From NCBI GenBank assembly GCA_021372435.1, contig JAJFUK010000194.1:1-38615 (forward strand): a stretch of 38,615 bases of DNA, read 5' to 3'. The notes under the pieces were generated by a model. That model did no database searches and was not told the DNA's origin. It saw only the letters and a list, made by a program, of their open reading frames with translations. Both the position numbers and the translations under genes were made by a program. Each line of letters opens with the position of its first letter. Position 1 is the stretch's first letter. The stretch is from Actinomycetes bacterium (lineage in GTDB: Bacteria > Actinomycetota > Thermoleophilia > RBG-16-64-13). Positions 142 through 38,615 of the stretch are shown here, one piece after another.

Positions 142-1600
142 TTGACCCTCCGAACGCTTGCATGCCGGCGTAGGCGTCCTCGTCCACCTTGCGGATGATC
201 TGCGCCGGCACGGATGTCCCGCCCACGGTCTTCGCTTCCTCGTAGTCCTCCGGGTCACTCTCCTGCCTAGAGCTGTAGATCAGGTACCGAATGGCGGCCA
301 TCGCGTGGTCGTTGAACGGTACCGGCTCGTCGAGGACCACGTCTTCCTTGGTGCGACGGTACTTGTAGCCGTGGATCTCCCGGAGGGTGTTCACCGATTC
401 GGCGCTGATCACCAGGCGGACCGACTTCACGAGATCGATTGACTCCTTGACGCTGCGCTTGTCGGCTGGCAGCACGTTGAAGCCATCAATGTCTACCACT
501 CGATCGTCGGGCTCGAGCTTGCCCTCGAAGCCCTGGCATTGCTCCTCGATGCGGTCCGGTTCGGCGCTGTCGGCGTAGATGGGGGAGTTATGAGACACGC
601 CCTCGTCCTCCATGGCGGCCATCAGCTGGCGGTTGGTGAGCTTTTTCTGGTACAGGATCTCGTGGATGTACCAGGTGCGGTCGTGCTCCCAGCCGGCCAG
701 CACCGCCGAGGGGTTGTTGAAGCCGTAGTCCTCGCCGTAGGCGGTCGGCTCGTTCTCCTTCTCTCTGATCGCCAGGGGGAAGGAGGAGAAGGGGATGACC
801 TCGTAGGTGGTGAAGATGAGGTCCTTCAGCACTCCGGGCAGACCCTTGGCGTAGACGCGATACCAGTTCTCATCGAGGTTGATGAGGTTTTCGATCTGCG
901 TGACCGTGGCCTCATCCAGGTGAGGGTTGTTGAGGTAGGTGCTGTAGTGGCGGCCGACCCGAGGGTCGCTGCCCTCGATGAGCTCCCGAATGATCCAGTG
1001 GTTGCCGTCGATAGGATTGTAAGTGAGGATGAGCTCGTTGGGCATGGGGCCCTTGCGTCTCTTCTTGATCACGCCGGCCTCCCGCAGCTTGTCCCAGTCT
1101 GGTGTCTTGGTGGTGCGCCGGCACCGGAGGTCCAGCTGCATGAAGTCCTCCTTGGTGAGCTCGGTAGCCTCCTCCGCCCACACGATGTTGGTCTCGTAGC
1201 TCTTGATCTTCTCGTGATCATCGAGTCCCAGGCCGTCGATGATGGCGCCGGTTGGTTCGTACGTCAGGGTGAGGTCCTGCTTGTTCTCCAGGACGTCGGA
1301 GTCCCTCCTGGAGCCTACTCTGAGGCCCCATGCCCGCAGCTGGTCCTTGAGGAGCCTCCAGCTGGAGCGCTTGAGCGAGGGGCGGTACTTGCGGACTGGG
1401 GTGATCACCAGGTCGTCGGTGCTGAGAAAGAGGAGGCAGAGGTGCTGCGAGACGCTGAAGGACTTCCCGCTGCCGGCGCCACCCTGCATCGGCTTGATGC
1501 GCCAGGTGGGGTCCATGAGGTAGTCATGGAAGTAGTCTAGCAGGTCGACCTGGACGCCGTCACTTTCGCTTGTAGTTGGCAGGTATGTGACGGAAGACAA
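128..1600 (-). CDS. terL: Terminase large subunit
   Basis: This is the DNA-packaging motor ATPase and nuclease (490 aa), which docks on the portal and fills the prohead. Walker A is GGAGSGKS at residues 40-47. The Walker B region is TNIVWAEEATE at 137-147, with an LTYNP coupling motif near 192-196. The RNase-H-like nuclease half shows acidic candidates at D291 (EDYGF), D344 (YADSAEP) and D431 (NDHAM). The layout fits the PBSX-like Terminase_3 group. The start is TTG inside the end of terS, preceded by AAGGAGGG seven bases upstream, so translation is coupled with a 41-base overlap. The next in-frame ATG (1516) would leave only 11 residues before Walker A and lacks a clear ribosome site. The portal follows across the contig join. 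Confidence 0.95.
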   Translation of the reverse strand: MSSVTYLPTTSESDGVQVDLLDYFHDYLMDPTWRIKPMQGGAGSGKSFSVSQHLCLLFLSTDDLVITPVRKYRPSLKRSSWRLLKDQLRAWGLRVGSRRDSDVLENKQDLTLTYEPTGAIIDGLGLDDHEKIKSYETNIVWAEEATELTKEDFMQLDLRCRRTTKTPDWDKLREAGVIKKRRKGPMPNELILTYNPIDGNHWIIRELIEGSDPRVGRHYSTYLNNPHLDEATVTQIENLINLDENWYRVYAKGLPGVLKDLIFTTYEVIPFSSFPLAIREKENEPTAYGEDYGFNNPSAVLAGWEHDRTWYIHEILYQKKLTNRQLMAAMEDEGVSHNSPIYADSAEPDRIEEQCQGFEGKLEPDDRVVDIDGFNVLPADKRSVKESIDLVKSVRLVISAESVNTLREIHGYKYRRTKEDVVLDEPVPFNDHAMAAIRYLIYSSRQESDPEDYEEAKTVGGTSVPAQIIRKVDEDAYAGMQAFGGSSLPF

Positions 1601-2105
1601 TCGTCGGCCCTCCTTGGTGCTCGATCTTGGCGTCGATGTTCTGCCGCTCGGCGTAGTTCTCCGGGTCGCTGTGGGCCAGCATGTACCTCGCGGCGCCCAG
1701 GTCCGGGGCGATCTTCTTGGTCGCCTCGCTGTTGAGGGCCTCGACCCACTTCTCCCTCGCTGCGGCCCGGGCCCGCTCGACCGCCTCCGAGAATTCCGTA
1801 TATGCCGGGCTCTTCCCCTCCCGCCCCCAGCGCTGCCAGTCGGTGAGCGTCGAGAATCCGACCCCCGAGAGCAGGGCGGCGTCCTTCAGGGAGAGGCCGT
1901 TCTCTAATTTGTCACAGATCTTCCGGGTGAGTTCAGGGGTGAGGAGTGTGGGCTGCCCGGGCCCCCGCTTCGGCGCCTTGGGCTTGTTCTCCTTCTTCGG
2001 GGGTGCGGGCGCCGGCTTCTTTGCGAGAGCCTTCTTGGCCTTCCTAGCCGGCTTAGTGGTGGTCTTCCTGGTGGGCAAAGTGCTTGATAATCGCGCACCA
2101 GGCAT
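1560..2105 (-). CDS. terS: Terminase small subunit (HTH DNA-binding)
   Basis: This protein (181 aa) probably recognises viral DNA and recruits TerL. Residues 1-55 are a Lys/Pro/Ala-rich basic tail. An HTH follows (about 60-95: LTPELTRKICDKLENGLSLK, then DAALLSGVGFSTLTDWQRWG), then a helical oligomerisation region (SEAVERARAAAREKWVEAL) and a YAERQNID segment typical of phage small terminases. The ATG at 2105 is chosen because a TATA box lies about 40 bases upstream. The open frame extends further up to 2300, but that part overlaps the promoter and does not look coding. It is the first gene of the late operon and overlaps terL. The family is inferred from layout and position. Confidence 0.88.
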   Translation of the reverse strand: MPGARLSSTLPTRKTTTKPARKAKKALAKKPAPAPPKKENKPKAPKRGPGQPTLLTPELTRKICDKLENGLSLKDAALLSGVGFSTLTDWQRWGREGKSPAYTEFSEAVERARAAAREKWVEALNSEATKKIAPDLGAARYMLAHSDPENYAERQNIDAKIEHQGGPTIVFRHIPANYKRK

Positions 2106-2118
2106 TATAGGACTTTCT
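2105..2118 (-). promoter_or_regulatory. Late element, copy A (AGAAAGTCC type)
   Basis: On the minus strand this reads AGAAAGTCCTATAA and runs into the terS ATG. It matches 13 of 14 bases of two longer copies at 27544-27557 and 36157-36170. It lies 25-40 bases downstream of the TATA box, near the expected transcription start, so it may be an initiator or 5'-leader element. It lacks the hairpin that precedes the other two copies. Confidence 0.5.
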
Positions 2119-13829: not shown

Positions 13830-13898
13830 CTATCTTGCCTCGTGAAATACAACACCCAATATAATTATCTATTAATTGAGAACAAATACTCTTCTGTC

Positions 13899-16633: not shown

Positions 16634-16634
16634 A

Positions 16635-23184: not shown

Positions 23185-26060
23185 CAGCCGAACCCCATCA
23201 GCTTCAGTTCGCTCGCAAACTCCTTCACGAAGGCCCGAGGGTTGTTGGTTTGCTTCATCTGCAGCACCAGCTGCCCGATGGAGAACGACCGCGTGGTGCG
23301 GCTGTTGGAGATCCCGGGCACCATGTCCCCGAGGCTCGAGGCCAGCGAGCCGATGCCGACCGAGCCCAGCATGTTCGCGGCCCCGGCCGAGGAGAACGCC
23401 TGGGAGCGGAGGTCGAGGATCTTCTGCATGATGTCGTCCGGGATAAGCCACTCCGGGCCGGCCTCGCCGAACACGCCCAGGGTCGGCTTGTCCACGTACC
23501 CGCCCTTGGCGAACAGGTGGAGCCCGGGGATCACGTCCCCCTGGGGAACGAGGCCGCCGATGAACTCCGAGACCAGGTTGGCGGCCTTCTGGGCGATCTG
23601 CCCCGGGGCGGCGATCAGGCCGTTGACGAAGGAAGTGATCCACTCCCCGGCCTTGCTCAGGAGGTCGGTGACCCCCTTGGCGATCCCGTCGATGAAGTTG
23701 GAGACCCACTCCCCGGCCTTGATGATCAGGTCCCCGGCTCCGGGGATGATGCCGTTGATGAAGTTACCGACCCACTGCGTGGCCTGCGCTATCAGCTGTC
23801 CGGGCCCCTGAGCGATCATGTTGACGAAGTTGGAGATCCACTGCACCGCCTGGTTGATCAGCTGCCCCGGCCCGGCCGCTATGCCGTTGATGAAGTTCGA
23901 GACCCATTGGATGGCGCCGTCGATCAGCTGCCCGACGCCGTTCGCCAGGCCGCCCACGAAGCCGACCACCCACTGTATCGCGGAGTCGACGATCTGCCCG
24001 GCCGCGCCCACCAGGCCGGCGCCGAAGTTCACGATGGCCTGCCCGATGGCGCTGAGGGCCTGCCAGATGAGGCTGCCGAGGGTGACCGCCAGCTGGACCC
24101 AGTCGATCGAGGCCAGCGCCCCGATGACCATCCTGGGGATGGCCATGCCGATGTTCGCCAGCCCCTGCAGAACCGCGAACCAGTCGATGTTGACGAAGAA
24201 GTTGGCGATGCCCATGAGCAGGCCGGCCAGCCCCTCGAGTATGGTCACCCCGATGCCGATCCAGTCGATGTGCCCGATGAAGTAGGCGATGTCCGCCCCG
24301 ACCTGGTCCCAGTTGATGTTGGCGATCCAGGTGATGACGCCGTTCAGGAGGTCGGCCGCGGCGGCGCCGGCGTCCATGAACGCCTTGATCCAGTCGATCT
24401 TCTCGAACCAGTCGATGATCCCGTTGATGACCTTGAGCGTGGCGTTGGCCGAGTCCATGAACGCCTGCTGCCAGTCGATGCTGCCGAACCACTCCCCGAG
24501 GGCGTCGATGACGTCCCCGCCGAAGGTGGCCAGCTTCGTCAGCAGCGCGTCCCAGTCGATCGAGCCGATGGCCTGTCCGATCTGGTCCCCGATGCCGCCG
24601 AGGAACTGGGCAACGCCGTTCACATCCTGAGCCATGGCGTCGACATCGAAGTCGCGCATGGCCGCCCATGCGCCCACGCCGGCGACAGCGGCGACCGGAG
24701 CGGCGACAGCTGCTGCAGTGCCGAGCCCCACCCCGCCGAGGAGGCCGCCGGCGCCGGCAGCCGCTCCTCCGCCGCCGAGGAGGCTCATGAGCCCGCCCCC
24801 GCCGCCGAGCATCCCGGTGATCGAACCGAGGCCGGAGACCATCGGGCCGAGGGCCATCAGCGCCGGGCCGGCCGCCGCGGCGATGCCGGCGAGCGCGATC
24901 GCCATGTCCTGCATCCCCGATGGCATGTTCTCGAACGCGTCGAAGAGGGGGATGACGACGTTGTCCAGCAGCCTCGTCAGCGGGGGCAGCAGCTTCTCGC
25001 CGATGCTGATCCCGAGGTCCAGGAGCTTGTCCTTGAAGATCTTGAACTTCCCCGCGGCGCTGTTGGCCATGACGTCCGCGGCCTCTTGCGCGGCGCCCTC
25101 GGAGTCCTTCATGTTCTGGACGAGGGTCTGGAAGTCGTCGTCGCTTGCGGCGATGACGCTCATCATCGGGCCCATGGCCTCGACGGTGAAGATCTTGGAC
25201 GCGTCCGCGGCGTCGATATTGGCGTCGTGCAGGTTCTGCAGGGCGCCCTGCAGGCCCACCACCTGGGGGTTGACGTCGTCGGCGGTGAGGCCGTACTTGG
25301 ACAGCGCGCGGCTGGACTCCGCCGTCGGCTTGACGAGGTTCACCAGGCCCATGCGCAGGGCGGCGCCGGCGGTCGAGGCCTCGTACCCGGCTCGGCTCAT
25401 GACGTCGAGCGCAGCCGCCGTCTCCTCGAGCGGGATGTCCATCTGCGAGGCCGTCGCGGCGACGTAGGACATCGCGGTGTTGAACTCCTCCGCGCTCCAC
25501 AGCGAGTTCTGGAAGGCCGCGGTGAGGATGTCGGTGACGCGCCGAGACTCTGAGGCCTCGATGTTGTATGCCTTCATCAGGCCCTGCAGGACCTGGGCCG
25601 TCTCGCTGAGGTCCGACCCGGAGGCGGCGGCGAGGTCCATGGCGCCGGCAAGGTAGTCCTGAATGTCCGCCGCGGTGCTGGTCGAGTCGGCGAGCCAGTA
25701 CATGGCGTCGGCGACCTGCGTGGCGCTGAAGGTGGAGCCGTCGGCCATCTCCCTCGCGGCGTCGCCCATGTTCGAGATCTCGTCGGCGGTCATGCCGGTG
25801 ACCGAGCGGATCTTCGAGAGCGCGGTGTCGAAGTCCGCGGCGGCCTTGACCGCCAGGCCGAAGGTGGCGACCACCGGCAGCGTCACGCCGGCCGTCAGCG
25901 ACTTGCCGATCGAGGACATCGAGGACCCGAGGCCCTTGAGCTTGGTGGAGAGGGTGCTCTGGGCCTTGTCCACCTCCTTCTGCACCCTGACCATCCCGGA
26001 CTCGAAGTCCGAGGTGTCCGCCGTCACGTTGACGTTGATCTCACCTAGATTTCCGGCCAT
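23184..26060 (-). CDS. Tape measure protein
   Basis: A 958-aa protein that sets tail length and is threaded in the tube before DNA ejection. The N-terminal part matches TP901-type tape measures: coil (VRVQKEVDKAQSTLSTKLKG), SSIGKSLTAGVTLPVVATFG, DFDTALSKIRSVTGMTADEI, LSETAQVLQGLMKAYNI, and LLPPLTRLLDNVVIPL. A Gly/Ala hydrophobic region (about 390-470) follows. Two repeat arrays come next: units with IDW at about 33-35 residues, then seven units of 22 residues. The end includes FAKGGYVDKPTLGVFGEAGP. At the usual 0.15 nm per residue the tail would be about 140 nm. It overlaps the GT product end by 20 bases. Confidence 0.93.
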   Translation of the reverse strand: MAGNLGEINVNVTADTSDFESGMVRVQKEVDKAQSTLSTKLKGLGSSMSSIGKSLTAGVTLPVVATFGLAVKAAADFDTALSKIRSVTGMTADEISNMGDAAREMADGSTFSATQVADAMYWLADSTSTAADIQDYLAGAMDLAAASGSDLSETAQVLQGLMKAYNIEASESRRVTDILTAAFQNSLWSAEEFNTAMSYVAATASQMDIPLEETAAALDVMSRAGYEASTAGAALRMGLVNLVKPTAESSRALSKYGLTADDVNPQVVGLQGALQNLHDANIDAADASKIFTVEAMGPMMSVIAASDDDFQTLVQNMKDSEGAAQEAADVMANSAAGKFKIFKDKLLDLGISIGEKLLPPLTRLLDNVVIPLFDAFENMPSGMQDMAIALAGIAAAAGPALMALGPMVSGLGSITGMLGGGGGLMSLLGGGGAAAGAGGLLGGVGLGTAAAVAAPVAAVAGVGAWAAMRDFDVDAMAQDVNGVAQFLGGIGDQIGQAIGSIDWDALLTKLATFGGDVIDALGEWFGSIDWQQAFMDSANATLKVINGIIDWFEKIDWIKAFMDAGAAAADLLNGVITWIANINWDQVGADIAYFIGHIDWIGIGVTILEGLAGLLMGIANFFVNIDWFAVLQGLANIGMAIPRMVIGALASIDWVQLAVTLGSLIWQALSAIGQAIVNFGAGLVGAAGQIVDSAIQWVVGFVGGLANGVGQLIDGAIQWVSNFINGIAAGPGQLINQAVQWISNFVNMIAQGPGQLIAQATQWVGNFINGIIPGAGDLIIKAGEWVSNFIDGIAKGVTDLLSKAGEWITSFVNGLIAAPGQIAQKAANLVSEFIGGLVPQGDVIPGLHLFAKGGYVDKPTLGVFGEAGPEWLIPDDIMQKILDLRSQAFSSAGAANMLGSVGIGSLASSLGDMVPGISNSRTTRSFSIGQLVLQMKQTNNPRAFVKEFASELKLMGFG
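23538..23999 (-). repeat. Seven 22-residue repeats in the tape measure gene
   Basis: Seven units of 66 bases encode GQLIxxAxQWVxNFINGIAxGP-like repeats. Trp and Phe recur at fixed positions, as in repeat regions of other siphovirus tape measures. Adding or losing units would change tail length in steps of 22 residues. Confidence 0.8.
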
Positions 26061-26738
26061 CTCTCCTCTTCAGCAGCTCCTCGAAGTCCCGTTTCGCCTC
26101 CTTGGCGGTCTTGGGGGGTTCGCCCATCTTCTCGTACCGGGGCATCTTCTCCACCCTGTGCAGGTACGCGGTCAGGTACGCCAGCTGCTTGATCTCCTCC
26201 TTCCGTCCCTGCACCCGCAGGTGGATCTCCGCCGGAGTGTGGTCCATCAGGCTGGCGGCGCTCACGTTCAGGTTCTTCATCCCGTACTTGACGATCCTCC
26301 ACCAGGTGGGTCCAGTGTCAAGTGGGTCGGCCTCGCCAAAGGGTCCTTGTCCTCCTTGGCCTCCTTGCCGCCCTTCCCCATCATGTGGGGCATGCAGACG
26401 TAGAGCGACTCGATCATCTTCCGGGTGATGTCCTGGGGGGGAGCGAGGGTCAGGAGGATGCCCGCCTCGTCCAACGTCAGGGTGGGGTCCTCGTACACCA
26501 GGCATGCCCACAGCGCGGTGGTGAGCGCGTTCAGGTCCATCTTGACCGCGGGCTGCTGCTCCGGAGGCAGGATCTTACCATCGGCGTCCCTCGCCGGCTG
26601 GGGGAAGGCGCTCATGATGTCCTTGCCCGTCCGCTCCTCGAACCTGCGCATGGCGTTGATGTCCATCCTGAGATGCCTGGTGATATCGAGCTCGATCGCC
26701 ACGCTCGGCAGCTCCATTTCCTTGAGGTGCAAGACCAT
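26041..26738 (-). CDS. Tail assembly chaperone GT fusion (by -1 frameshift)
   Basis: A -1 slip at CCCTTTG (26337-26343) would extend the G protein past residue 134 into the overlapping frame, giving about 232 aa. The T part reads GEADPLDTGPTWWRIVKYGM, then SAASLMDHTPAEIHLRVQGR and a basic helical end (AKEAKRDFEELLKRRDGRK). This is the classic G/GT arrangement, with the fusion bridging tube and tape measure during assembly. The stop lies 20 bases inside the tape measure gene. The T frame has no sensible start of its own, which supports expression by frameshifting. Confidence 0.85.
26277..26738 (-). CDS. Tail assembly chaperone G
   Basis: The unshifted 153-aa product. Residues 12-120 are an alpha-helical chaperone-like domain (AIELDITRHLRMDINAMRRF; ALTTALWACLVYEDPTLTLD; QDITRKMIESLYVCMPHMM). 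The last 20 residues after the slip site are low complexity. The ATG at 26738 has GAGGAA five bases upstream. It lies between tail tube and tape measure genes, as expected for gpG-type chaperones. Confidence 0.85.
   Translation of the reverse strand: MVLHLKEMELPSVAIELDITRHLRMDINAMRRFEERTGKDIMSAFPQPARDADGKILPPEQQPAVKMDLNALTTALWACLVYEDPTLTLDEAGILLTLAPPQDITRKMIESLYVCMPHMMGKGGKEAKEDKDPLARPTHLTLDPPGGGSSSTG
26337..26343 (-). promoter_or_regulatory. Slippery heptamer C CCT TTG for -1 frameshifting
   Basis: In the G frame the codons CCT TTG (residues 133-134) follow a C, making the X XXY YYZ pattern. Slipping one base back re-pairs both tRNAs on CCC TTT and continues in the T frame. It is close in form to the lambda G/GT site GGGAAAG. 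A short CCACC/GGTGG stem lies about 25 bases downstream. Confidence 0.85.
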
Positions 26739-26747
26739 ATCAATTCC

Positions 26748-27080
26748 TCAAGGAAGCTCCACAGCGGCGATCTGTACGGTGGCCACGGACGAACAAACGA
26801 CGGACACCAGGCCAGCAGAATCGTTGAACTGGCGCTGGTTGAACGGCCCGATGCGCTTGGTCACGCCGGCGCCCACGGCGACCACGAGGTCGTGATCCTG
26901 CCCGAGGTCACATGGGGTCTTCGCATCGATAGTGACGTTGATGCTCGAGGCACTGCCGTTCTTGACTTCCAGGAAGGTCTTCCCGGAATTGAAGAACTTG
27001 TCACCGGAGGTCGCGGTGGGCGTGACATAGGCCTGGTCGATGCCGGTGACGGCGATGCGCTGGACTGTGAGAGTGGCCAT
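26748..27080 (-). CDS. Small structural protein next to the tail tube
   Basis: A 110-aa protein, all-beta. DKFFNSGKTFLEVKNGSASS, then INVTIDAKT, VAVGAGVTKRIGPFNQRQFN and LVSVVCSSVATVQIAAVEL form a pattern seen in small phage virion proteins near tail genes (N-G-x-FLxVkNgs ... iGPF ... y.d..G.v). GAGGTG lies before the ATG. It may decorate tube or capsid; the exact role is uncertain. Confidence 0.65.
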   Translation of the reverse strand: MATLTVQRIAVTGIDQAYVTPTATSGDKFFNSGKTFLEVKNGSASSINVTIDAKTPCDLGQDHDLVVAVGAGVTKRIGPFNQRQFNDSAGLVSVVCSSVATVQIAAVELP

Positions 27081-27089
27081 CTAGTCACC

Positions 27090-27497
27090 TCAGACAGAGG
27101 CCAGCACGCCGGAGCCCTGGAACTCGAGCTTATAGGTCGCTTCGTCGTCGTAAGGTCCCTCGATGTCGCCGCTCTTGATCAGAGCAGTGCCCTTTTTCCA
27201 CCCAGTGCCCTCGACAAAGATCTCTAGCTCCACCTCGGTTTGGTTGTCGAGTGCTGCCTCCAGGGCGATGAGCCCGGCGTCATCCTTGACCCACACACCA
27301 TCAGCGCTCACGGACCAGGAGCCGAAGCCATGCTTGAACTGCTTCTTCTTTCCAGGGCTGAGCTTGTTGGTGTTCTCGATCATCTCGTTCTCCCTGGACA
27401 GGGTCGCTCCCCGCTGCCCGGCCACCTCGGTCCAGGTGGGGGTGCCTTCGTCCCCGGTGTTCACCTTGATTATGATGTCGCATCCAGATACAGACAT
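27090..27497 (-). CDS. Major tail tube protein
   Basis: A 135-aa protein. SGCDIIIKVNTGDEGTPTWT then EVAGQRGATLSRENEMIENT, NKLSPGKKKQFKHGFGSWSV and a final beta segment match the phage major tail protein 2 / TP901-1 tube family, in which VaGQRgatLs and a T/N-K linker are typical. Its rings would form the tail shaft. The ATG at 27497 has GAGGAAAGG upstream. The hairpin-bearing late element (27540-27585) lies just ahead, suggesting separate control of this abundant protein. Confidence 0.85.
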   Translation of the reverse strand: MSVSGCDIIIKVNTGDEGTPTWTEVAGQRGATLSRENEMIENTNKLSPGKKKQFKHGFGSWSVSADGVWVKDDAGLIALEAALDNQTEVELEIFVEGTGWKKGTALIKSGDIEGPYDDEATYKLEFQGSGVLASV

Positions 27498-27528
27498 GTC
27501 CTTTCCTCGCGGCCTATGGCCGCCAGAA

Positions 27529-27585
27529 CATCGCCTGGTCGGGTTATTGGACTTTCTACAATAAGGCTATCAATTGCCTTATTGT
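27529..27585 (-). promoter_or_regulatory. Late element, copy B, with 10-base-pair hairpin
   Basis: The core CGGGTTATTGGACTTTCTAC (plus strand 27540-27559) is identical to copy C at 36153-36172. It is preceded, in minus-strand reading, by a stem: arms 27558-27567 and 27576-27585 (ACAATAAGGC/GCCTTATTGT) with an 8-base loop. Downstream similarity continues over CATCGC (27529-27534), where a four-sense-codon upstream ORF (ATG TTC TGG CGG CCA TAG has five) begins. It may be a promoter, leader structure or processing site. Confidence 0.6.
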
Positions 27586-27592
27586 GTTGTAA

Positions 27593-28372
27593 TCACTCCT
27601 GGACTGCGAGCTCCACGCCGCCGGTGATCTTCAGCAGGGCAGTGAAGCGCAGCATAGTGGCGAACGAGACGTTCAGATGATTGACAAAAGCCTCGAACCT
27701 GAACGTCAGTCCGAAGCCGGCCGGCAACTTGAGCTCGCAGGATCTGATGACACGGCCGGTGGCATCCTGATAGAAGGAGATGCTATCGCCCTCCTTGATC
27801 AGCGTGCCGACGACCTCGAGCTCGGTGAACTGCAGCATTCCGGGCTTGAAGGTCCTCGCCTTCTGCTGGCCCCAGCTGGTGTCCTTGACCGCGACGTCGA
27901 GCTCCAGGTCCCCGAGGTTGAGGACCTCCGCGACCTCCGCTCCGTTCCATATGAGCTTGGTGCCCTTGGCCAGGGTCGAGAGGGAGTCGAAGGACAGGGT
28001 GACGATGAAGTTCTGCGTTAGCACGAACGCGCCGGCCTCGTCGGTCCCCAGGGGCATGGCCTCCTGGAGCGCCTTGACCTCGAGGTACTTGACGGCCCCG
28101 ATGGTCAGGCCATTGATGCCGACGAGGATCTGCCTCGCCCGCTCTACCCACGCCCGGGCATGATCGCTGTCGGTGTCCCGGACCATCACCTGCAGGCCGG
28201 GGTGCATGATCCACTTGCCATCGAGCGTCTGCTCCGGGAGCTCCCCGGCGTCGCCGTGCAGGGACATGCACACCGTTGGGTCATCGGGCATCAGGTCCCG
28301 GAAGATCTCGTCCGCGCTGCCCACCCCCTGCGCTATCAGGTAGTTCTGCAGGTCCTCCAGCCAATTGGTCAT
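27593..28372 (-). CDS. Tail terminator fused to a tail-tube-like domain
   Basis: A 259-aa protein. Residues 1-130 resemble phage tail terminator/minor capsid proteins (WLEDLQNYLIAQGV; WIMHPGLQVMVRDTDSDHAR; LTIGAVKYLEVKALQEAMPL; EAGAFVLTQNFIVTLSF). Residues 135-259 look like a tube domain (KGTKLIWNGAEVAEVLNLGD, DVAVKDTSWGQQKARTFKPG, ELEVVGTLIKEGDSISFYQD). Usually these are separate genes. The ATG overlaps the upstream stop as ATGA; an upstream in-frame extension was discarded. A fusion protein could cap the tail at the head junction. Confidence 0.65.
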   Translation of the reverse strand: MTNWLEDLQNYLIAQGVGSADEIFRDLMPDDPTVCMSLHGDAGELPEQTLDGKWIMHPGLQVMVRDTDSDHARAWVERARQILVGINGLTIGAVKYLEVKALQEAMPLGTDEAGAFVLTQNFIVTLSFDSLSTLAKGTKLIWNGAEVAEVLNLGDLELDVAVKDTSWGQQKARTFKPGMLQFTELEVVGTLIKEGDSISFYQDATGRVIRSCELKLPAGFGLTFRFEAFVNHLNVSFATMLRFTALLKITGGVELAVQE

Positions 28373-28746
28373 CTCGTCAGCCTCCCGATCATGTTCAGCA
28401 CGTGCTCCTTGATGGTCGGGCCGAGCGAAGGTTTCCTCCGGAGGAACGGATCGATCAGGAAGTGCGCCTTGCCGTGAGGATGCCGATAGCTCATCTCCTG
28501 GTGCTGCCGCCTGGCATACACGGTGTTGTAGCCGCTCTGCACGGTCACCGAGCTCCTCTTGTATTTGGGGTCGTTGACCTTGCCGGTCCTGATCATCTCC
28601 CTCGTTTGGTAGGGGGACTCGCTGTGCGATTCGTTCATCATCTCGTTCGACCACTTGTGGGCGCCCTCGCCCACGGCCGGCAGGACATTGCCCTTGAGCA
28701 GCTCCGCCTTGGCCTTCACCTCCTCAACACCGGTGACCGAGCTCAT
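28369..28746 (-). CDS. HK97 gp10-like neck protein
   Basis: A 125-aa protein, basic. VEEVKAKAELLKGNVLPAVG leads to SESPYQTREMIRTGKVND, then SGYNTVYARRQHQEMSYRHP and GKAHFLIDPF, a layout typical of HK97 gp10 / tail-completion proteins (helix, then beta strands with a y..vyY..F.E.G-like core). The ATG shares bases with the upstream stop (ATGA). It lies between head closure and terminator genes, as expected. Confidence 0.75.
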   Translation of the reverse strand: MSSVTGVEEVKAKAELLKGNVLPAVGEGAHKWSNEMMNESHSESPYQTREMIRTGKVNDPKYKRSSVTVQSGYNTVYARRQHQEMSYRHPHGKAHFLIDPFLRRKPSLGPTIKEHVLNMIGRLTR

Positions 28747-29066
28747 ACGTCCACCGTCCAATAGGCGAGCTCGTCCGAGTCCCCGTACATCGGCGAGACC
28801 AGGAGGATCATCGGGGTACTGCCGTCCGGAAGAGTGATCTTGTCCCCGAGCTCGATCGACGCCTTCGCCTCGACGTATACCCGGGCGTTCGAGACCTTCT
28901 CGAAGCGGTTCGTCATCCCATCCCCGGAGCTCGTCCGGACGAGGCGGGGCTTGTACTGTACTCGAGCGCGGTAGCTGACCTCATTCCCGTAGAGGTAGTG
29001 GCCCTTGCCGTCGCTGCCGGCCTTCTTGGCGATCGTCACTCTCTGGTTCAGCATCTCGTCGATCAT
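28743..29066 (-). CDS. Head closure / head-tail joining protein
   Basis: A 107-aa protein. It starts MLNQRVTIAKKAGSDGKGHY and has small-barrel strands (VSYRARVQYKPRLVRTSSGD, ARVYVEAKASIELGDKITLP), ending SPMYGDSDELAYWTVDV. This fits SPP1 gp16-type head completion proteins in size, order and pattern. It is coupled by ATGA at both ends. Confidence 0.75.
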   Translation of the reverse strand: MIDEMLNQRVTIAKKAGSDGKGHYLYGNEVSYRARVQYKPRLVRTSSGDGMTNRFEKVSNARVYVEAKASIELGDKITLPDGSTPMILLVSPMYGDSDELAYWTVDV

Positions 29067-29806
29067 CTGCGCCGCCTCGAGTAATTGGGGATCTCAGATC
29101 CATCGAGCTCAAGCTCGGGCATGTCGGCGTCGGAGCGATCGACGATGGGGTCGACCTCGCTGACCTCGTCCTCGAGCAGCTTCTCCAGCTCCGCCTCGTA
29201 CTCCTGCAGGAAGGCGGAGGTCCCGCTCGGCTTCCCGTAGGAGTAGTCGCCGAGCTTCTCCGAGGTCATCACCGTCCCGCCCCGGGAGACCTCGAACAGG
29301 TGCAGGATGGTCAGCAGGTGCATGTGCTCGTAGGTCTCCTGGGCAACCCCCTCCGGGAGGTCGGCGTCCAGGTACACCCTCTTCGCCCTCGAGGCAAGGT
29401 AGTTGAACCGGGCGGTGGTGAACTTCGAGCCGAGCTCGTCGCTCACCCGGTACTTGGACATGAAGGGGACCATGGCGGCCAAACCGGTGACCTCCTGGGG
29501 CACGGGCGGGTCCACATGGAGCGTGCCCTCGGCGATGACATAGAGGTCGGTCTCGGTGGTGGCCTCGACCTCGAACTCATAGTCTCCGCTGAGGCCTAGT
29601 GTATCGGTCGGCCCGAGGGTCAGCCGCACGCTGTTCGAGGTAGCGGGATCGCCCACCACCGGGCAGGCCCTGCTCAGCTTCAGCTGCCCGCCCTGGTAGG
29701 CCTTGAAGGTGATCGTAATGCCCACCAGGTCGTCCACTCCGCTCACGGGTATGCTCACCGGGAGGGATTCCCCCGCCCGGATCTCAAGGTACTGGTCGTC
29801 TGTCAT
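29063..29806 (-). CDS. Beta-sandwich domain fused to head-tail connector
   Basis: A 247-aa protein. Residues 1-105 form an Ig-like or BppU-N-like sandwich (YLEIRAGESLPVSIPVSGVD; ITITFKAYQGGQLKLSRACP; GDYEFEVEATTETDLYVIAE). Residues 110-215 resemble gp6-type connectors (FMSKYRVSDELGSKFTTARF; EHMHLLTILHLFEVSRGGTV; MTSEKLGDYSYGKPSGTSAF). An acidic tail ends in SRRRR. The connector part suits the position before head closure. The fused sandwich is unusual and may decorate the neck. It starts at an ATGA overlap with the fibre gene. Confidence 0.65.
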   Translation of the reverse strand: MTDDQYLEIRAGESLPVSIPVSGVDDLVGITITFKAYQGGQLKLSRACPVVGDPATSNSVRLTLGPTDTLGLSGDYEFEVEATTETDLYVIAEGTLHVDPPVPQEVTGLAAMVPFMSKYRVSDELGSKFTTARFNYLASRAKRVYLDADLPEGVAQETYEHMHLLTILHLFEVSRGGTVMTSEKLGDYSYGKPSGTSAFLQEYEAELEKLLEDEVSEVDPIVDRSDADMPELELDGSEIPNYSRRRR

Positions 29807-32562
29807 CCTTGAACCTCCTTGTCGTTCATGTCGCCGTCGATCTCTTCCGATGGCATCGTTCCCTCGATCGCACTGTCTCCCGTCCGGCCGGCCACCGTTG
29901 GTGCGGGCACCTTTCCGTCCACGCTCCTCCGCTTAAGAGCGGCGTTGAGCCTGGCGATCCTTAGCGCCCGCACGAGCACGTGGGTCAGCTGCGTCCCGTC
30001 CTTGAGGACGAGGTCCTCGCGGCTCAGGATCTCCTTAGCGAGGGCGACGAGATCTCCTGCAGTGATGCCGTCCTCGAGCACCAGGTCCTTGTCGCTCCGG
30101 ATCTCGTCGTCGAAGGTCACTCCTTCGGAAGTGGCGATGAGCTTGGAGATTCTCGCCAGGTCCTGCACCGCGATCGCGTCGCTCCGGAGCAGGGCCTTGG
30201 TGACCCTGGTGTCGTCTCCGAGGCCCACCCGCTCGGCGATGAGCGAGGCCTTGACCAACTTGGCCACGTCCGCCGCGGCGATGGCCTGGGCCACGCGTAT
30301 CGCCTTCGCCAACGTGGCGGCATCGGTGATACGGATGCTCTCCGAGGCGTAGAGCTCAGTGAGCTGCCCGAGGATCGATCGCAGGACCGTCTCGCTCAGC
30401 GTGATGCCCTCGCCGGCGAGCAGCTGCTTGATCAGCGCGACGGTGTCCGCCACCAGGACAGGCTCCTGGGCGATGATCGCCTTCTCCAGCGTGACCATGT
30501 CGGAGGTGGCCACCTGCTCGCCCAGCTTGATGTCCTTCCCGATAGTGGCGCCGTCCCCGAGCTCCAGGTCCTCGTTCGCCCTCAAGGCCTTCTGCAGCAC
30601 GACCTTGTCAGCCGCTCCGATCGACTGGGCCACGATGATGGTCTTGATCATCTTGGCTGCATCGCTCGCCGTCGCTCCCTCGCTCATCCGGAGGACCTTG
30701 ATCAGTGAGACCGCGTCCCCCAGAGTGAGGCCGTCCGCGACCACGAAGGAGAGGATCCTGGAGACGGCCGCCGTGTCGCTCGCCTCCACGAGCTCGAGGG
30801 CGGTGAGCAGCTTGACCAGGACGACGGTGTCGCCCAGCCTCGCGCCGTCGCTGATCAGCATGTTCTTGGAAACGGTCGTGCCGTCAGTGGCCTTAGCGTT
30901 ATCGAGGACCTTGATGGCCTTGGTCAGGAGGGTGGCGTCCGATGCGCTGAGCCCCTCGATGATCTTCAGGGCCTTCGACGCGATCGCACCGTCGGAGGCC
31001 TTTGTTCCCTCCGCCACCTTCATGCTCTTGGTCAGCGCGATCGCGTCCCCGAGCTGCGCGGTCTCGGCCGTCCGGAGGGCCTTGACGAACGCCGCCACGT
31101 CCGTTGCCCGAATCGTCTCGAGGGCAGTGAAGGCCTTGATGATCGCGGCCGCGTCCGCGAGGGCCACGCTGTCCGCCGCCCTGATGGCCTTCGACAGCAC
31201 CAGGCGGTCGGCGGCGGTGATGTTGTCGGCCAGCTTGAGGGCCTTGGCGATGATGGCGGCGTCCGATGCCCGCACCGCCTCGGTCTCGAGCATGGTCTTG
31301 ACCATCCACACGGTGTCGGAGGCGTCCACGTCCTCGGCGGCGATGATCGCCTTGACGACGCGCAGGACCTCCCCGATCGTCAGCTGCTCGTCCTCCACGA
31401 TCTCCTTGCTCATGGGGCACAGGTCCTCCGCCCCGATGCCCTCGGCCACGTTGATGCTCTTGGTAATCCCGGCCACGTCGGCCGCGCTGATCGTCTCGGT
31501 GATGGTGAACGACAGCGTCTGCCCGGAAGCCAGCGCAAGCATGGCCACGTTGATCTGCCAGGGGGATGCCGACGAAGCCAGGTAATACACCGCTATGCGG
31601 TCGTTCTCGATGATGTCCACGTCATGCCAGCGGTCACCATAGACCGCTGTTTCGGTTATCCATCCGTCGTAAAGGGCCCAGGTGTCGGCGGCGGCGTCGT
31701 ACTTCCAATAGCCCACGCTATTGGCTGCCGAGTAGTTGCAGAAAACGATGTAGATGTTCGACCCATCGGCAACCACCCTGGGAGCGAAGGTGTTGGTGGG
31801 TATGTCGTAAGTGCTCCCCAGGCGGGTATCCGTCCCCCATCCGGCCGAGGTTCGGCAGTTGTACCGCAGGAATGTGGGGGCCACATAATTATATTGATAC
31901 ACGACGAATATATCCGTCCCGTTGACCACACAGGCATCCCACTGGTAGCCGTCCGACTGATCCCTTATGGTTCCCGTTTCCTCGCTCCCCAGGCTCCCGT
32001 TGTAGAGGCGGCCATAGATGTAGGAGGCTGTCTTGGCGTAGCACACGTACCATTGCCCGTCGCTCAGGGCCAGGGGCTTGACCCTCCAGTTCGAGGTGGA
32101 CGACGTGGTGTTCAGCTGCGTCGTGCCCCCAGCGGTCCATCCGGAGGAGCACGCGGTCGTCGTCCCCCAGGTGACGTAGGGATAGACGCTCGAGCCTTTG
32201 GCGTACCCGATCACCGCCTTGCCGTCGGTGGTGACGGCCACCGCCAGGCGGTTGCAAGTCGTGGTCGAGTCGACGCTGACGGCGGCGCCGTCCCAGGTGA
32301 TCGTGCCGTCGGCGTTGCACACCCCCGTTCCCCACATGATCCCGCCGGACGTGCCCACGTACACCACGTGGACGCGGTGGGTGGCCTGGTGCACGGCCAC
32401 GGCCATGCGGTACTCGGGGTTGGTGCTGCTCAGCTGGGCTACGGTCTGCTGGCCGTACTTGGTGGCCCACCCGTCGGCGGAGGAGTCGAAGGCGAAGTAG
32501 CGACCGTTCTCGATGTAGAACAGCCAGTCCCGCCCGTTGGTCTTGAACGAGGCATGCTCCAT
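29803..32562 (-). CDS. Long fibre: beta-propeller plus 28 repeats of 18 residues
   Basis: This continuous frame gives 919 aa. Residues 1-350 look like a beta-propeller (RDWLFYIENGRYFAFDSSAD; HRVHVVYVGTSGGIMWGTGV; DIFVVYQYNYVAPTFLRYN; NIYIVFCNYSAANSVGYWKY), similar to the 19149-20276 protein. Residues 358-868 hold about 28 tandem repeats of 18 residues, pattern [IVL]xAxDxxxLxKAIxxxEx, followed by a 51-residue polar tail. The coding frame seems to continue upstream of the ATG (SGTQITTDTYSNGAIRAG) without a start, pointing to a frame break near 32620-32630. It is probably a receptor-binding fibre. Its place between capsid and connector genes is unusual. Confidence 0.75.
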   Translation of the reverse strand: MEHASFKTNGRDWLFYIENGRYFAFDSSADGWATKYGQQTVAQLSSTNPEYRMAVAVHQATHRVHVVYVGTSGGIMWGTGVCNADGTITWDGAAVSVDSTTTCNRLAVAVTTDGKAVIGYAKGSSVYPYVTWGTTTACSSGWTAGGTTQLNTTSSTSNWRVKPLALSDGQWYVCYAKTASYIYGRLYNGSLGSEETGTIRDQSDGYQWDACVVNGTDIFVVYQYNYVAPTFLRYNCRTSAGWGTDTRLGSTYDIPTNTFAPRVVADGSNIYIVFCNYSAANSVGYWKYDAAADTWALYDGWITETAVYGDRWHDVDIIENDRIAVYYLASSASPWQINVAMLALASGQTLSFTITETISAADVAGITKSINVAEGIGAEDLCPMSKEIVEDEQLTIGEVLRVVKAIIAAEDVDASDTVWMVKTMLETEAVRASDAAIIAKALKLADNITAADRLVLSKAIRAADSVALADAAAIIKAFTALETIRATDVAAFVKALRTAETAQLGDAIALTKSMKVAEGTKASDGAIASKALKIIEGLSASDATLLTKAIKVLDNAKATDGTTVSKNMLISDGARLGDTVVLVKLLTALELVEASDTAAVSRILSFVVADGLTLGDAVSLIKVLRMSEGATASDAAKMIKTIIVAQSIGAADKVVLQKALRANEDLELGDGATIGKDIKLGEQVATSDMVTLEKAIIAQEPVLVADTVALIKQLLAGEGITLSETVLRSILGQLTELYASESIRITDAATLAKAIRVAQAIAAADVAKLVKASLIAERVGLGDDTRVTKALLRSDAIAVQDLARISKLIATSEGVTFDDEIRSDKDLVLEDGITAGDLVALAKEILSREDLVLKDGTQLTHVLVRALRIARLNAALKRRSVDGKVPAPTVAGRTGDSAIEGTMPSEEIDGDMNDKEVQG
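29959..31491 (-). repeat. Array of about 28 repeats of 18 residues (54 bases)
   Basis: Each unit has an Asp at position 5, Lys at 11 and an acidic residue near 17, for example VRASDAAIIAKALKLADN and ITAADRLVLSKAIRAADS. Two units are longer (about 20 and 23 residues). The units differ in sequence, so this is an old array. The period suggests a solenoid or fibrous trimer shaft. Confidence 0.85.
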
Positions 32563-32620
32563 CCCGGCCCGTATGGCCCCGTTGCTGTAGGTGTCGGTGG
32601 TGATCTGGGTGCCGGACGTC

Positions 32621-32681: not shown

Positions 32682-32686
32682 GGGCC

Positions 32687-33280: not shown

Positions 33281-33287
33281 GCCCACC

Positions 33288-35065: not shown

Positions 35066-35069
35066 GATC

Positions 35070-36128
35070 TCAGTCCTCCACCCACTCGCCCTTCTTGGCG
35101 TCCCACCGGCCGACGGTCGAGATGGAGGACTTGTTCTTGTGCTCCACCTCTTCGCTGCCCTCCTCGCCTCCAGGGTTGGCGTCCTTCTTGTTCAGGAGCT
35201 CCTCGAGGAGGCCGGCGCGGTCCTTCTCGAACCGCTCGCGGGTCTTGGCCTCGTTGTCCTTGTGCAGGTAGCCTTTGGGCACGTAGGACTTGTTCTTGAA
35301 CTCGTTCCAGGCCGCTTCCTTCCGTTCCTTCTCAAGAGCGTCGGCCTTGTTCTTCATGTCCTGCAGCTCGGCGTCCTTGGCCTTCAGAGCATCATCCTTG
35401 TTCTTGAGCTCCGTCTGCAGCCTCTCGATCTCGGCCTTCCCGGCCTGGTCGTTGGTCGTGTCGTTCACCTCTCCGTTGTGGTTGTCGGCCGGGGGCCTCT
35501 GCTCCCCGCCTTTCTTGTCATCCTTAACCTCTGGCTCGTCCAGCTCGATGTCAGGGAACTCCTCCTTGACCTTCGCCTTGAGTCTAGCGAAGAACCCCTT
35601 GGCCTGCTTCTTCTCGTCGTCACCCATGCTCCTACGCTCCTTGTTCAGAAATCCAGATCCCAGATCCACGGGCAGGTCGTTGGCGCCCTCCTTGAATGCC
35701 AGGACGTGATGAGGATTCACCGGGCCGTCGATCGCCCCGTTCTTAGCCTTCGCCCGGAAGCCGGTGCTCAGGGAGAGCTCGCCGGCCGCGATCATGGCGT
35801 CCATCGCGGGGTCGTTGAACCTGGTGTCCCCCATGAGCCTCGGGTGCCCGGTGTTGGAGATCCTCGGATTCTCCACCTTCCCGACGATCTTGCCCTTGAT
35901 GCGGACAAGCTCGGCGGCCGGGTCGTGGTCGAAGGCATCCATGTCCGGGTGCTCCTGGGCATAGATCACCGGGACCTTGGCCCAGGCGTCGACGGTAGGC
36001 TCGAACCATTTGGCTCCGTAGAAGGTGTCCCTGGCGCCCCTGCGGTTCAGCGTCTGGAATATTGTGCCATGCGCCTGGTTGAGGTGCTCGGCGTTCGAGA
36101 AGTGCTGCAGCTCGGGATCGTCGGCCAT
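35070..36128 (-). CDS. Prohead protease-scaffold fusion
   Basis: A 352-aa protein. The N-terminal half matches DUF2213/S78-like prohead proteases: VPVIYAQEHPDMDAF with candidate His60, GKIVGKVENPR, then ELSLSTGFRAK with candidate nucleophile Ser119 or Ser121, and NPHHVLAF. The C-terminal half is a Lys/Glu-rich coiled scaffold (about 175-325; AEIERLQTELKNKDDALKAK). It would be cleaved during maturation. The ATG at 36128 has no obvious ribosome site. Late element copy C lies 25-45 bases upstream with a short upstream ORF, so the start of this gene may be regulated. Confidence 0.8.
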   Translation of the reverse strand: MADDPELQHFSNAEHLNQAHGTIFQTLNRRGARDTFYGAKWFEPTVDAWAKVPVIYAQEHPDMDAFDHDPAAELVRIKGKIVGKVENPRISNTGHPRLMGDTRFNDPAMDAMIAAGELSLSTGFRAKAKNGAIDGPVNPHHVLAFKEGANDLPVDLGSGFLNKERRSMGDDEKKQAKGFFARLKAKVKEEFPDIELDEPEVKDDKKGGEQRPPADNHNGEVNDTTNDQAGKAEIERLQTELKNKDDALKAKDAELQDMKNKADALEKERKEAAWNEFKNKSYVPKGYLHKDNEAKTRERFEKDRAGLLEELLNKKDANPGGEEGSEEVEHKNKSSISTVGRWDAKKGEWVED

Positions 36129-36141
36129 GCTATTGGCAGAG

Positions 36142-36190
36142 CATCGCTCGGGCGGGTTATTGGACTTTCTACTTTGAGGCTATAATTTGC
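36142..36190 (-). promoter_or_regulatory. Late element, copy C, with covarying hairpin
   Basis: The core at 36153-36172 is identical to copy B, and the flank CATCGC also matches. The stem here is TGAGGC/GCCTCA (about 36175-36180 and 36189-36194) around an 8-base loop. Copy B has TAAGGC/GCCTTA at the same place, so the changed base pair is compensated. A short upstream ORF (ATG CTC TGC CAA TAG) starts at the same place as in copy B. The protease-scaffold gene follows. Confidence 0.6.
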
Positions 36191-36199
36191 CTCATAAGG

Positions 36200-36346
36200 T
36201 CAGGAGGTCCCCTTTCCCTTGAGGTACCGTTTGACGGTCTTCCTCTCCACGTGAAGCTCCCGGGCCATCTGGTTGATGAGCATCTTATCCACGTTGCGAT
36301 CGATGAACTCCTTCTGCTCCCTGGTCAAGGGGTGACCGCTCGGCAT
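36200..36346 (-). CDS. Helix-turn-helix microprotein in the head module
   Basis: A 48-aa protein. LTREQKEFIDRNVDKM is a helix, then a helix-turn-helix, INQMARELHVERKTVKRYLK, of resolvase/transposase type. CGGAGG lies four bases before the ATG and overlaps the MuF stop region. It precedes late element copy C by under 50 bases, so it could act on that element or on the late operon generally. A small-terminase accessory role is another option. Confidence 0.7.
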   Translation of the reverse strand: MPSGHPLTREQKEFIDRNVDKMLINQMARELHVERKTVKRYLKGKGTS

Positions 36347-36356
36347 GGTCCTCCGA

Positions 36357-37091
36357 TCAGCCCCGCACCGCTGGTTCCGGCCCGTAGTAGGCGTCGTAGT
36401 ACCTTGTTCCGTTCGGGTGGTCGTCGTTGGCCTGAGCATAGGGTACGGTCCAGATCTCCCCGTCGATCGCGTTGCACTTCTCGCATGATCCATGAGCGTG
36501 GCCGTCGTGAACGGTGACCTTGCCCACCCCGTGCCGGTCGAACGAGTCCAGGGAGGCGTGGTTCTGTATGCGAGCAACCTCGCTTCGGGCGACCATGCTC
36601 GCGTGCGACTTGCGGCCGTTGAAGAAGTCCTCGAGGTCGGCGGCGATCGAGCCCTTGGGGTACCCTCCCTTCTTGAGCTCGGTGACGCCGGTGGGCTTGC
36701 CGTTCCGGATGCCTTTCTGTATGATCTCGGAGATCTTCGCCCGCTCCTCGGCGGTCAAGTTCTTGAGCCAGGGGTTCGGCTTGCCGTTGATGATGGTGGC
36801 GCCCTCCTTCTCCAGGAGCTCGCCGTACCCATTTCCGTACCGCTCGGCATCCTCGCTGATCATACGGAAGTTCAACGAGTCAGCGGTCACCCGGCCGGCC
36901 CCGGGGGCGGCGGTCCGGACGATAGCGGAGGCCTCGGGCGTCCTTATCGTGCGGTAAGAGTCGACCACCCCCGCGGCATAGGATGCAGTGGCGCTGCGCG
37001 TTAGGATCCTGATGAGGCTCGGGGTCATCTCTGAGTAGGCAGCATCGACCAGGGCAGTGACGTCCGGGTCGGGCACGATCTCGGAGCTCAT
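36357..37091 (-). CDS. MuF-like minor head protein
   Basis: A 244-aa protein. The N-terminal helices are followed by KNLTAEERAKISEIIQKGIR and the typical MuF/SPP1 gp7 C-terminal domain: MVARSEVARIQNHASLDSFD, then HGSCEKCNAIDGEIWTVPYA and DDHPNGTRYY. MuF proteins join the portal and help DNA delivery. It overlaps the portal stop as ATGA, the usual order. No toxin domain is fused. Confidence 0.88.
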   Translation of the reverse strand: MSSEIVPDPDVTALVDAAYSEMTPSLIRILTRSATASYAAGVVDSYRTIRTPEASAIVRTAAPGAGRVTADSLNFRMISEDAERYGNGYGELLEKEGATIINGKPNPWLKNLTAEERAKISEIIQKGIRNGKPTGVTELKKGGYPKGSIAADLEDFFNGRKSHASMVARSEVARIQNHASLDSFDRHGVGKVTVHDGHAHGSCEKCNAIDGEIWTVPYAQANDDHPNGTRYYDAYYGPEPAVRG

Positions 37092-38548
37092 GCCGCCCTC
37101 CGAGTCTCCAGCTGCTGCAGGCCCTTGTAGAAGACCATGGCCATGTCATCGTAAGCTTCCCCGATGTCCTTCTCCAACGGGTCCGAGCGCTCGGCGATCC
37201 TCTCGGGCACGTCCTCCTTGTTGCCGAACGGCACGACCGTCGCCGGCGCCGCGGGATACTCAGCCTCGAGCTCCTCGAGCCCTTTCTCATCCAGGGCCTC
37301 GTGCTCCAGGAGCACGCGGATCTCGTTCTTCTTGAGGGCCTTGGTCTGGTAGCCGACGGTGGCCTGCTTCAGCTGCACCTCCGAGCGGTCCTGCTTGGGC
37401 GGCGGGATGTCGATGAACGCCTGGTACCCGTCGTAGCCGTTGAGATCCAGGTACATCTGGGGCAGCGTGCGGCAACCCTCCTCGAGGACCGAGTGCCAGC
37501 CCAGGACGAAGTCGTTGGTCTGGTCGACCTCGGCGCTGCCGGTGCTGCCCAACGAGCCTTGCTGCCGCTTGATCATGCTCGAGGGCGAGAAGTAGTCATC
37601 GATCTCCTTACGGACGTCGTCCACGGTGAGGACGGCCACCCTGGTCTCGGTGACGTCGATGCCCTCGGCGTCCATGTTCTCCAGGAGCGTGAACGCGGTG
37701 TTGTTCCCCCAGTGCTCCAGGACGTTGTTGGCCCAGTCGATCTCCCTCTTGCTGGGCTTCCGTTTGAACTTGATGAAGATGTTCTGCGCCCCGATCCGGT
37801 TGCACTGCTGCATCTGCACCTTGCGGCAGAAGTTGTACTCGCGCACCAGCCCCACGACAGACTCGACCTGCGACTCGCCGGCGATCTGGGAGCACGTCGG
37901 GTCCTTGATCATGAACACGTTCTTGATCGGTCTCGGGTTGCTAGTCATGTCAATGCTCTGCCAGAACTGCACCTCTCCTGTGGCTTCGTCCAGCACGATG
38001 CCCGGCAGGAGCTCGGAGAATTCGTGATTGGCCTTGGGCGCCGGCACGGAGAACGACTCGGCCGGCAGGTGACGCAGAGCAGCCAGGACCCACTCCCCGC
38101 CGACCTTCTCCCATACTGGATTGAACAGCGCCGGCCCCCAGTCCATGATGTCGTTCCAGGCCATCATCATCTTGGACCACAGGTTGACCTTGGGGGCGTC
38201 GAAGACCTGGTGCAGGCGCTTGCCGAGCTCCTCGTCGACGTTGCCCTTGGGATCGAGGATGCGGAACTGGTAGTGGTCGCGGAAGATCAGCCGCTTGAGC
38301 TTGAGCTTGTTCTTCTTGACCAGGTGGTTCTTGAGGACCTTGAGGACCTCATCGGCGTCGATGACCTTGGCGATGAAGCTGACGCCTCCCCGGTAGACGT
38401 AGACGGCGCCCTCCTGGGTGCTGTCGGGGGAGTAGGGGATCTCCTCCTGCATCGCCGCGCCGGGCGAGGCGGGCATGGACTCGGCGATCTGGGCTTGAGG
38501 CTTGGGCTTGGCGGTAGGCTTGGAGCTCTTACGTGGCGTTGAGGGCAC
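37088..38548 (-). CDS. Portal protein
   Basis: This 486-aa protein forms the dodecameric DNA gate at one capsid vertex. After a Lys/Pro/Ala-rich tail (about 1-45) it has GAVYVYRGGVSFIAKVI, a helical stretch, MMAWNDIMDWGPALFNPVWE, then VEFWQ/QFWQSIDMTSNPRPI-type wing strands, QMQQCNRIGAQNIFIKFKRK, a tunnel-helix region (STGSAEVDQTNDFVLGWHSV; CRTLPQMYLDLNGYD) and an acidic C-terminus. Size, order and pattern fit phage portal families. The start is GTG in the terminal repeat and terL lies just upstream across the join. Confidence 0.88.
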   Translation of the reverse strand: MPSTPRKSSKPTAKPKPQAQIAESMPASPGAAMQEEIPYSPDSTQEGAVYVYRGGVSFIAKVIDADEVLKVLKNHLVKKNKLKLKRLIFRDHYQFRILDPKGNVDEELGKRLHQVFDAPKVNLWSKMMMAWNDIMDWGPALFNPVWEKVGGEWVLAALRHLPAESFSVPAPKANHEFSELLPGIVLDEATGEVQFWQSIDMTSNPRPIKNVFMIKDPTCSQIAGESQVESVVGLVREYNFCRKVQMQQCNRIGAQNIFIKFKRKPSKREIDWANNVLEHWGNNTAFTLLENMDAEGIDVTETRVAVLTVDDVRKEIDDYFSPSSMIKRQQGSLGSTGSAEVDQTNDFVLGWHSVLEEGCRTLPQMYLDLNGYDGYQAFIDIPPPKQDRSEVQLKQATVGYQTKALKKNEIRVLLEHEALDEKGLEELEAEYPAAPATVVPFGNKEDVPERIAERSDPLEKDIGEAYDDMAMVFYKGLQQLETRRAA

Positions 38549-38615
38549 CCCAGCAGAGTATCTCCGTTCCCGCTAATGTGCCTTTCTGTGCCATTTCTAT
38601 CCTAGAAGGGAAGGC
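38475..38615. repeat. Terminal direct repeat, right copy
   Basis: Identical to bases 1-141. It contains the portal start, the terL-portal gap and the last bases of terL. See the left copy for interpretation. Confidence 0.95.

Follow-up and report, generated by a model that had tools for sequence, protein, structure and literature searches.

Late region organisation and the repeated element

Four copies of one repeated element head the late gene blocks of the virus genome contained in the window (the whole 38,615-nt stretch of DNA analysed here). From their positions and internal spacing we consider that these repeats are probably late promoters of a temperate tailed archaeal virus, the dyads of two copies being putative sites for a regulator. 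All four copies lie on the minus strand, which carries every late gene, and in gene orientation before the terS, portal, prohead and major tail protein genes (Table 1). The late region consists of four blocks (terS-terL; portal-MuF-HTH; prohead to connector genes; tail tube onwards) with one copy at the head of each. The first-pass annotation had proposed a shared signal heading three such blocks; this proposal is supported more strongly than claimed, the number of copies being four because copy D had been missed. Of the genes it named after the copies, terS and tail tube (the major tail protein) were correct, and the third is the prohead gene, for whose product no family match supporting the label "protease-scaffold" was found.

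Table 1. Coordinates of the element copies, their dyads and the neighbouring genes in the window.
Feature	Position	Strand	Description
Copy A	2084..2118	-	Degenerate, no dyad; heads terS; start codon and 3' end predicted
Copy B	27524..27582	-	Late element of 59 nt; heads the major tail protein gene (ATG 27497)
Copy C	36137..36195	-	Late element of 59 nt; heads the prohead gene (ATG 36128)
Copy D	38554..38587	-	Heads the portal gene (GTG 38548); second occurrence at 80-113 in the end redundancy
Dyad/hairpin of copy B	27558..27585	-	10 perfect pairs, 8-nt loop; AATTGATA
Dyad/hairpin of copy C	36175..36194	-	6 pairs, 8-nt loop; AAATTATA
terS gene, longest ATG form	1560..2105	-	PHROG 4102, E 6.8e-16
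Major tail protein (tail tube) gene	27090..27497	-	PHROG 1407, E 1.3e-31
Prohead/scaffold-region gene	35070..36128	-	Homologue in vir524, a methanogen virus
48-aa helix-turn-helix protein gene	36200..36346	-	Directly before copy C; weak Pfam matches, TnsD E 0.0012 and HTH_7 E 0.0094
Portal gene	37088..38548	-	PHROG 113, E 0.0025 (weak); homologues in vir524 and vir525

Copies B and C form a 59-nt block with 49/59 identical positions (83%), and the pair was recovered by self-BLAST of the window (E 3e-10). The 20-base core reported earlier is part of this block and is indeed identical at 27540-27559 and 36153-36172, pointing leftwards in both places. Read on the minus strand, copy B is ATAAGGCAATTGATAGCCTTATTGTAGAAAGTCCAATAACCCGACCAGGCGATGTTCTG, copy C is ATGAGGCAAATTATAGCCTCAAAGTAGAAAGTCCAATAACCCGCCCGAGCGATGCTCTG and copy D is AGAAAGGCACATTAGCGGGAACGGAGATACTCTG. 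Copy D, situated between the genes for terL and portal, is the best match in the genome outside B and C for the right half of the element (20/30 positions, the next place having 18). The spaced motif AGAAAG-N19-GATNYTCTG is exact in B, C and D, with a mean of 0.22 expected by chance even when two mismatches are allowed, and copy A nearly keeps the same spacing.

Copy A was first recognised by the 14-base centre of the core, which recurs with one change at 2105-2118, on the minus strand, as had been stated. This match proves little alone, since a one-mismatch recurrence of any 14-mer of B and C arose in 15/40 Markov shuffles; scored on the full 20-base core, copy A reached 14/20, which is equalled by two other places in the genome. 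Copy A also shares AGAAAGTCC(T)ATAA and GCGAT with B and C at a spacing that is the same within one base, and AGAAAGTCC is present just three times in the viral genome, in A, B and C. The composite pattern AGAAAG-N3/4-ATAA-N7/12-GCGAT, designed after the copies had been seen, matched the genome exactly three times (A, B and C) and was found in 0/100 shuffles. This indicated that copy A is probably a genuine, degenerate copy.

The last base of the element is separated from the start codon by 5 nt in D, by 8 nt in C and by 26 nt in B (counts by reading); in B the tail tube ATG is preceded by GAGGAAAGGAC and has a ribosome-binding GAGG. For copy A the distance would be 5 nt if terS starts at TTG 2078, and the position of the copy argues for this start rather than ATG 2105. 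The tiny upstream ORFs that had been noted do exist for both B and C; however, the GATG of the element itself supplies their ATG, and this place reads GATT in copy A and GATA in copy D. Elsewhere in the window, the tape measure gene contains five copies of a repeat with a 66-nt period (23607-24000).

The virus genome and its probable host

The first and last 141 bases of the window are identical (1-141 and 38475-38615), which indicates that the virus genome is complete at about 38,474 bp and either circular or terminally redundant. The 2.8-Mb MAG of which this virus is one contig (C182) is bacterial: it gave ten matches to sigma-70 region 2 and none to TBP or TFIIB. Among 50,697 phage records, the portal and prohead proteins gave matches only to viruses assigned to Methanomicrobiales/Methanosarcinales. 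Beside the integrase gene, at 8894-9155, there are three direct repeats TTCC(A/G)GTGGAA(A/C) that resemble origin recognition boxes; the third, GTTCCAGTGGAAATGATGGG, is close to the Methanomassiliicoccales consensus GTTCCAGTGGAAATGG-AGGGGT (PMC4153887). The repeats are possibly the replication origin of the virus, and a distant relative (L068) has two repeats of this kind. Given archaeal-type origin repeats and portal and prohead relatives in methanogen viruses only, the host would be archaeal and the virus was probably mis-binned into the bacterial MAG.

The integrase, whose presence makes the virus probably temperate, had a weak match (E 0.004) to a Methanomassiliicoccales virus and an equally weak one to a Pseudomonas phage, and no tRNA-like attP was found near it. 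Against an archaeal host, the closest likeness of the major tail protein is to Geobacillus and Bacillus phage proteins, the tape measure protein matches bacterial phages and the best match of terL is a Thermoanaerobacterium phage; tail-type and terL proteins are widely shared. PCNA, as an archaeal marker, was found in 0/16 relative records. Tetranucleotide frequencies of the window correlated at 0.67-0.88 with seven contigs of the MAG, at 0.65-0.88 with eight of nine virus loci and at -0.22 with the ninth, AT-rich locus, and composition thus does not decide the host. The A/T-rich intergenic stretches at 13800-13870 and 16620-16635 contain canonical TTTATAAA / TTTATATAAA and are candidate early promoters.

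Proposed promoter geometry and possible role of the dyad

The promoter reading is supported by the four minus-strand copies at block heads with their fixed internal spacing, by the archaeal affinity of the genome and by the repeats or TATA-like boxes that several relatives have at the boundary before prohead. It would assign the parts of the element as follows. AGAAAG would occupy the position of the TFB recognition element (BRE) and the A/T-rich patch (TATAAT, AATAAC or ACATTA) that of a weak TATA box. The GATNYTCTG-like motif lies about 15 nt beyond the A/T patch, and RNA would begin at the end of the motif, at or just after TCTG, a point that precedes the ATG of the tail tube gene by 27 nt and the start codons of the other three genes (terS, portal, prohead) by 6-9 nt. 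The inverted repeat of B and C, directly upstream of AGAAAG, would be the binding site for a dimeric viral or host protein; archaeal activators commonly bind upstream of the BRE position. The bound dimer would help TBP and TFB to use the weak TATA patch, and the prohead/capsid and tail-tube blocks would come on late and strongly. The location of the dyad together with the weakness of the TATA patch favours an activator. By its position directly before copy C, the 48-aa helix-turn-helix protein is a candidate regulator; a longer form of it matched a late-activator PHROG weakly (E 0.003), and no homologue was found in the relatives at E 1e-3.

In the repeats of halovirus HF2 the TATA box starts at -26 and the BRE covers -33 to -37 (PMC8707807), and the distances of the A/T patch and AGAAAG of the element from the predicted RNA start, where GATNYTCTG ends, would roughly agree with this. 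No canonical TATA box is present in B, C and D, and copy A has a better one (TATATAA, 2149) further upstream that would start RNA near AGAAAG. Binning with a bacterial genome and tail proteins like those of bacterial phages speak against archaeal promoters. In a scan of 26000-38615, where copies B, C and D lie, for sigma-70-type promoters with -35/-10 hexamers 16-18 nt apart, none was found on the minus strand and a single match on the plus strand, with 1.6 expected, which gives a bacterial late promoter no support.

A different placement of the core promoter would make the dyad overlap it: the loop (AATTGATA or AAATTATA) would be the TATA patch, RNA would start around AGTCCAATAACC, and the inverted repeat would be a repressor operator that silences the tail and capsid promoters in the provirus. 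The distance of about 26 nt from the loop patch to AGTCCAATAACC, part of the 20-nt core, is like the TATA-to-start distance of HF2, the presence of an integrase and a probably temperate virus agree with a provirus operator, and the repeated piece GATTGAAATATCAG of two relatives (G064 and G066) is also an A/T patch between short arms. However, copy A has no A/T patch there despite its AGAAAG and part of the 3' motif, and its nearest TATA (2149) is at another distance. As copy A does not fit, we keep this arrangement as a rather unlikely rival and not as the common core; if the loop is a real TATA patch, the protein that binds the dyad would possibly be a repressor.

The first-pass annotation had described the stem before B and C as a covarying hairpin with compensated pairs. 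The stems are real, but only a single pair is compensated (A-T in B, G-C in C), and the four outer pairs of B are not kept in C. Copy D has a five-base arm only (TTCTA-GGA-TAGAA, by eye) and no hairpin was seen in copy A. A covarying RNA helix is thus not supported as a feature common to the four copies: two of them have it minimally or not at all, it depends on one compensated pair, and such a change would equally be expected in a DNA dyad bound by a dimeric protein; two sequences with one changed pair do not distinguish the two. The absence of the dyad where the rest of the element is kept favours an accessory upstream site. Searches with terL, major tail protein, MCP and portal found no relative close enough for an analysis of stem covariation.

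A hairpin in the 5' part of the late mRNAs, acting on their translation, stability or processing, would account for the compensated pair and for the RNA folding results, in which the small stem hairpins had z scores of -5.9 and -3.9 and the whole leader of B had -4.5, the last being also a point against the promoter reading. We nevertheless regard it as improbable, given that A has no comparable stem and D only the 5-pair one, that covariation amounts to one pair between two copies, that the most conserved part (GTAGAAAGTCCAATAACCCG) is outside the stem, and that the closest relatives carry different elements, some with plain TATA boxes. An Rfam search with E up to 5 gave no match to the element, the single match being an unrelated microRNA at 15200. 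Among the leader, promoter and processing signal first suggested, a promoter is the best fit and the other two are less likely. That the copies mark module boundaries and are retained for recombination among related viruses, or are left over from a recent duplication, with no expression role, would suit their location at block boundaries and the near-identity of B and C, but is very improbable given the fixed spacing, which even the diverged copies (A and D) retain, and the start codons close by.

The position before prohead in related viruses

Relatives were collected by portal alignments, which gave 17 and 30 loci (the lists overlap), and by terL, which gave 2 viral loci. The major tail protein and MCP each gave 0 loci, an MCP alignment search returned only the 2 contigs already known, and neither scan of named genomes gave a relative. 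In the 61 genomes around the MAG there was one weak terL match (E 2.7e-4) besides the virus itself. The relatives, at 30-40% protein identity, do not have the element sequence: AGAAAGTCC(A/T)ATAA was absent from 38 relative loci, and AGAAAGTCC occurred in 7/38 without continuing into (A/T)ATAA in any. The expectation that AGAAAGTCC would recur upstream of the same genes in relatives was therefore not borne out as sequence, and the positions hold other, sometimes duplicated, promoter-like elements.

The distant relative L068 has a 128-nt element before prohead that is 91% identical to a copy right after terL and contains perfect palindromes (one of 30 nt) and TATTTAAA; a 25-nt piece of it recurs at 1195-1219, upstream of the nearby terS block. 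In G072 (L113, L114 and L115) a promoter-like repeat of 68 nt, with a TATA box and TTTATATAC, is present four times, once before prohead, and G070 has repeats of TATA-rich, partly low-complexity DNA. G064 and G066 carry TTGAAATATCAGC before prohead and after terL, and G063 carries it before prohead. Single TATA-like sequences were found in G065 (TATATAAG, 30 nt before the prohead ATG) and vir524 (TTATAACC, 34 nt before it); in copy C, AATAAC is 33 nt before this ATG (counts by reading).

An intragenomic repeat within 150 nt before prohead was present in 4/13 genomes including the window, with 0.72 expected (summed by hand over background windows), and in 3/12 without the window, with 0.61 expected. 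The prohead starts in relatives were taken from the longest open frame, except in L068 (ATG 11691). With one threshold for all, 9/13 genomes did not pass, G064 and G066 among them; this, together with a sequence conserved in no relative found, counts against the promoter reading. As a tentative and more general proposal, tailed viruses of uncultured archaea might share a late programme in which structural blocks are started by virus-specific, activator-dependent promoters with weak TATA boxes. In each lineage the element would have been exchanged for a lineage-specific repeat-plus-operator at unchanged gene boundaries (before prohead, after terL), with regulator and sites turning over together and the positions staying.

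Two wider pattern searches gave candidates that were rejected. The exact 16-mer TAGAAAGTCCAATAAC was found in 57 stretches of viral contigs and attributed to chance, as 56 scored stretches averaged 12.4/43 matches outside the core, against 10.75 expected at equal base use, and the twelve best-scoring stretches were AT-rich contigs. The pattern AGAAAGTCCNATAA-N7/12-GCGAT was found in 6 contigs, all of 33-37% G+C and without similarity to the 21 late proteins of the window. Among these 6 contigs and the 57 loci with TAGAAAGTCCAATAAC, one window protein (g23184) matched one locus (L030).

As a separate observation, L068 encodes a tail protein followed by a reverse transcriptase (4525-7447; PHROG 1423, E 2.5e-120), and with its 74% repeat pair (5959-6080/6171-6283) this has the appearance of a diversity-generating retroelement. 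A reverse transcriptase is likewise encoded by two annotated methanogen viruses, vir525 and vir215.

Comparison with known systems

To our knowledge, late-gene timing in the tailed viruses of methanogens and related archaea has been little studied, and no description of this element was found in searches of the literature on late promoters. The earlier designation of the element as undescribed holds, as far as these searches show, for its sequence and not for its kind; the kind to which it probably belongs, intergenic promoter repeats, is known from HF2. If confirmed, the four copies would provide a ready promoter set with testable start sites and an operator for finding the late regulator, and the comparison made here suggests that late blocks in the genomes of archaeal viruses can be recognised by their promoter repeats. 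The window would also exemplify a virus with archaeal signals whose genome was assigned to a bacterial MAG.

Small DNA-binding viral proteins such as SvtR, AvtR and F55 act at inverted or tandem repeats near BRE, TATA or start sites, and SvtR and AvtR bind imperfect inverted repeats (PMC5569661), to which the dyads of B and C are comparable. A difference is that these are ribbon-helix-helix proteins of crenarchaeal viruses. The late repeats of L068, G070, G072 and G064/G066 resemble the element in standing before prohead, with a second copy right after terL in L068 and G064/G066. They differ in having their own sequence in each lineage (G063, G064 and G066 share one) and in the clear TATA boxes of L068 and G072.

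The closest known system is halovirus HF2, in which two classes of intergenic repeats, 58 bp (I) and 29 bp (II) long, carry promoters, and all were active when cloned before a reporter (PMC8707807). As in HF2, repeats of similar length are dispersed in the genome of one tailed virus, here a probably archaeal one, with conserved motifs at what would be the TATA region and the start site, and the class II repeats of HF2 are tied to morphogenesis genes. The two differ in that copies B, C and D of the window are without canonical TATA and two of the window's copies carry a dyad. The HF2 repeats are conserved across the genus and active in reporters, whereas the present element is known from its sequence and is not conserved in the relatives found. 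The likeness is one of the way of working, and homology with the HF2 repeats is neither claimed nor expected.
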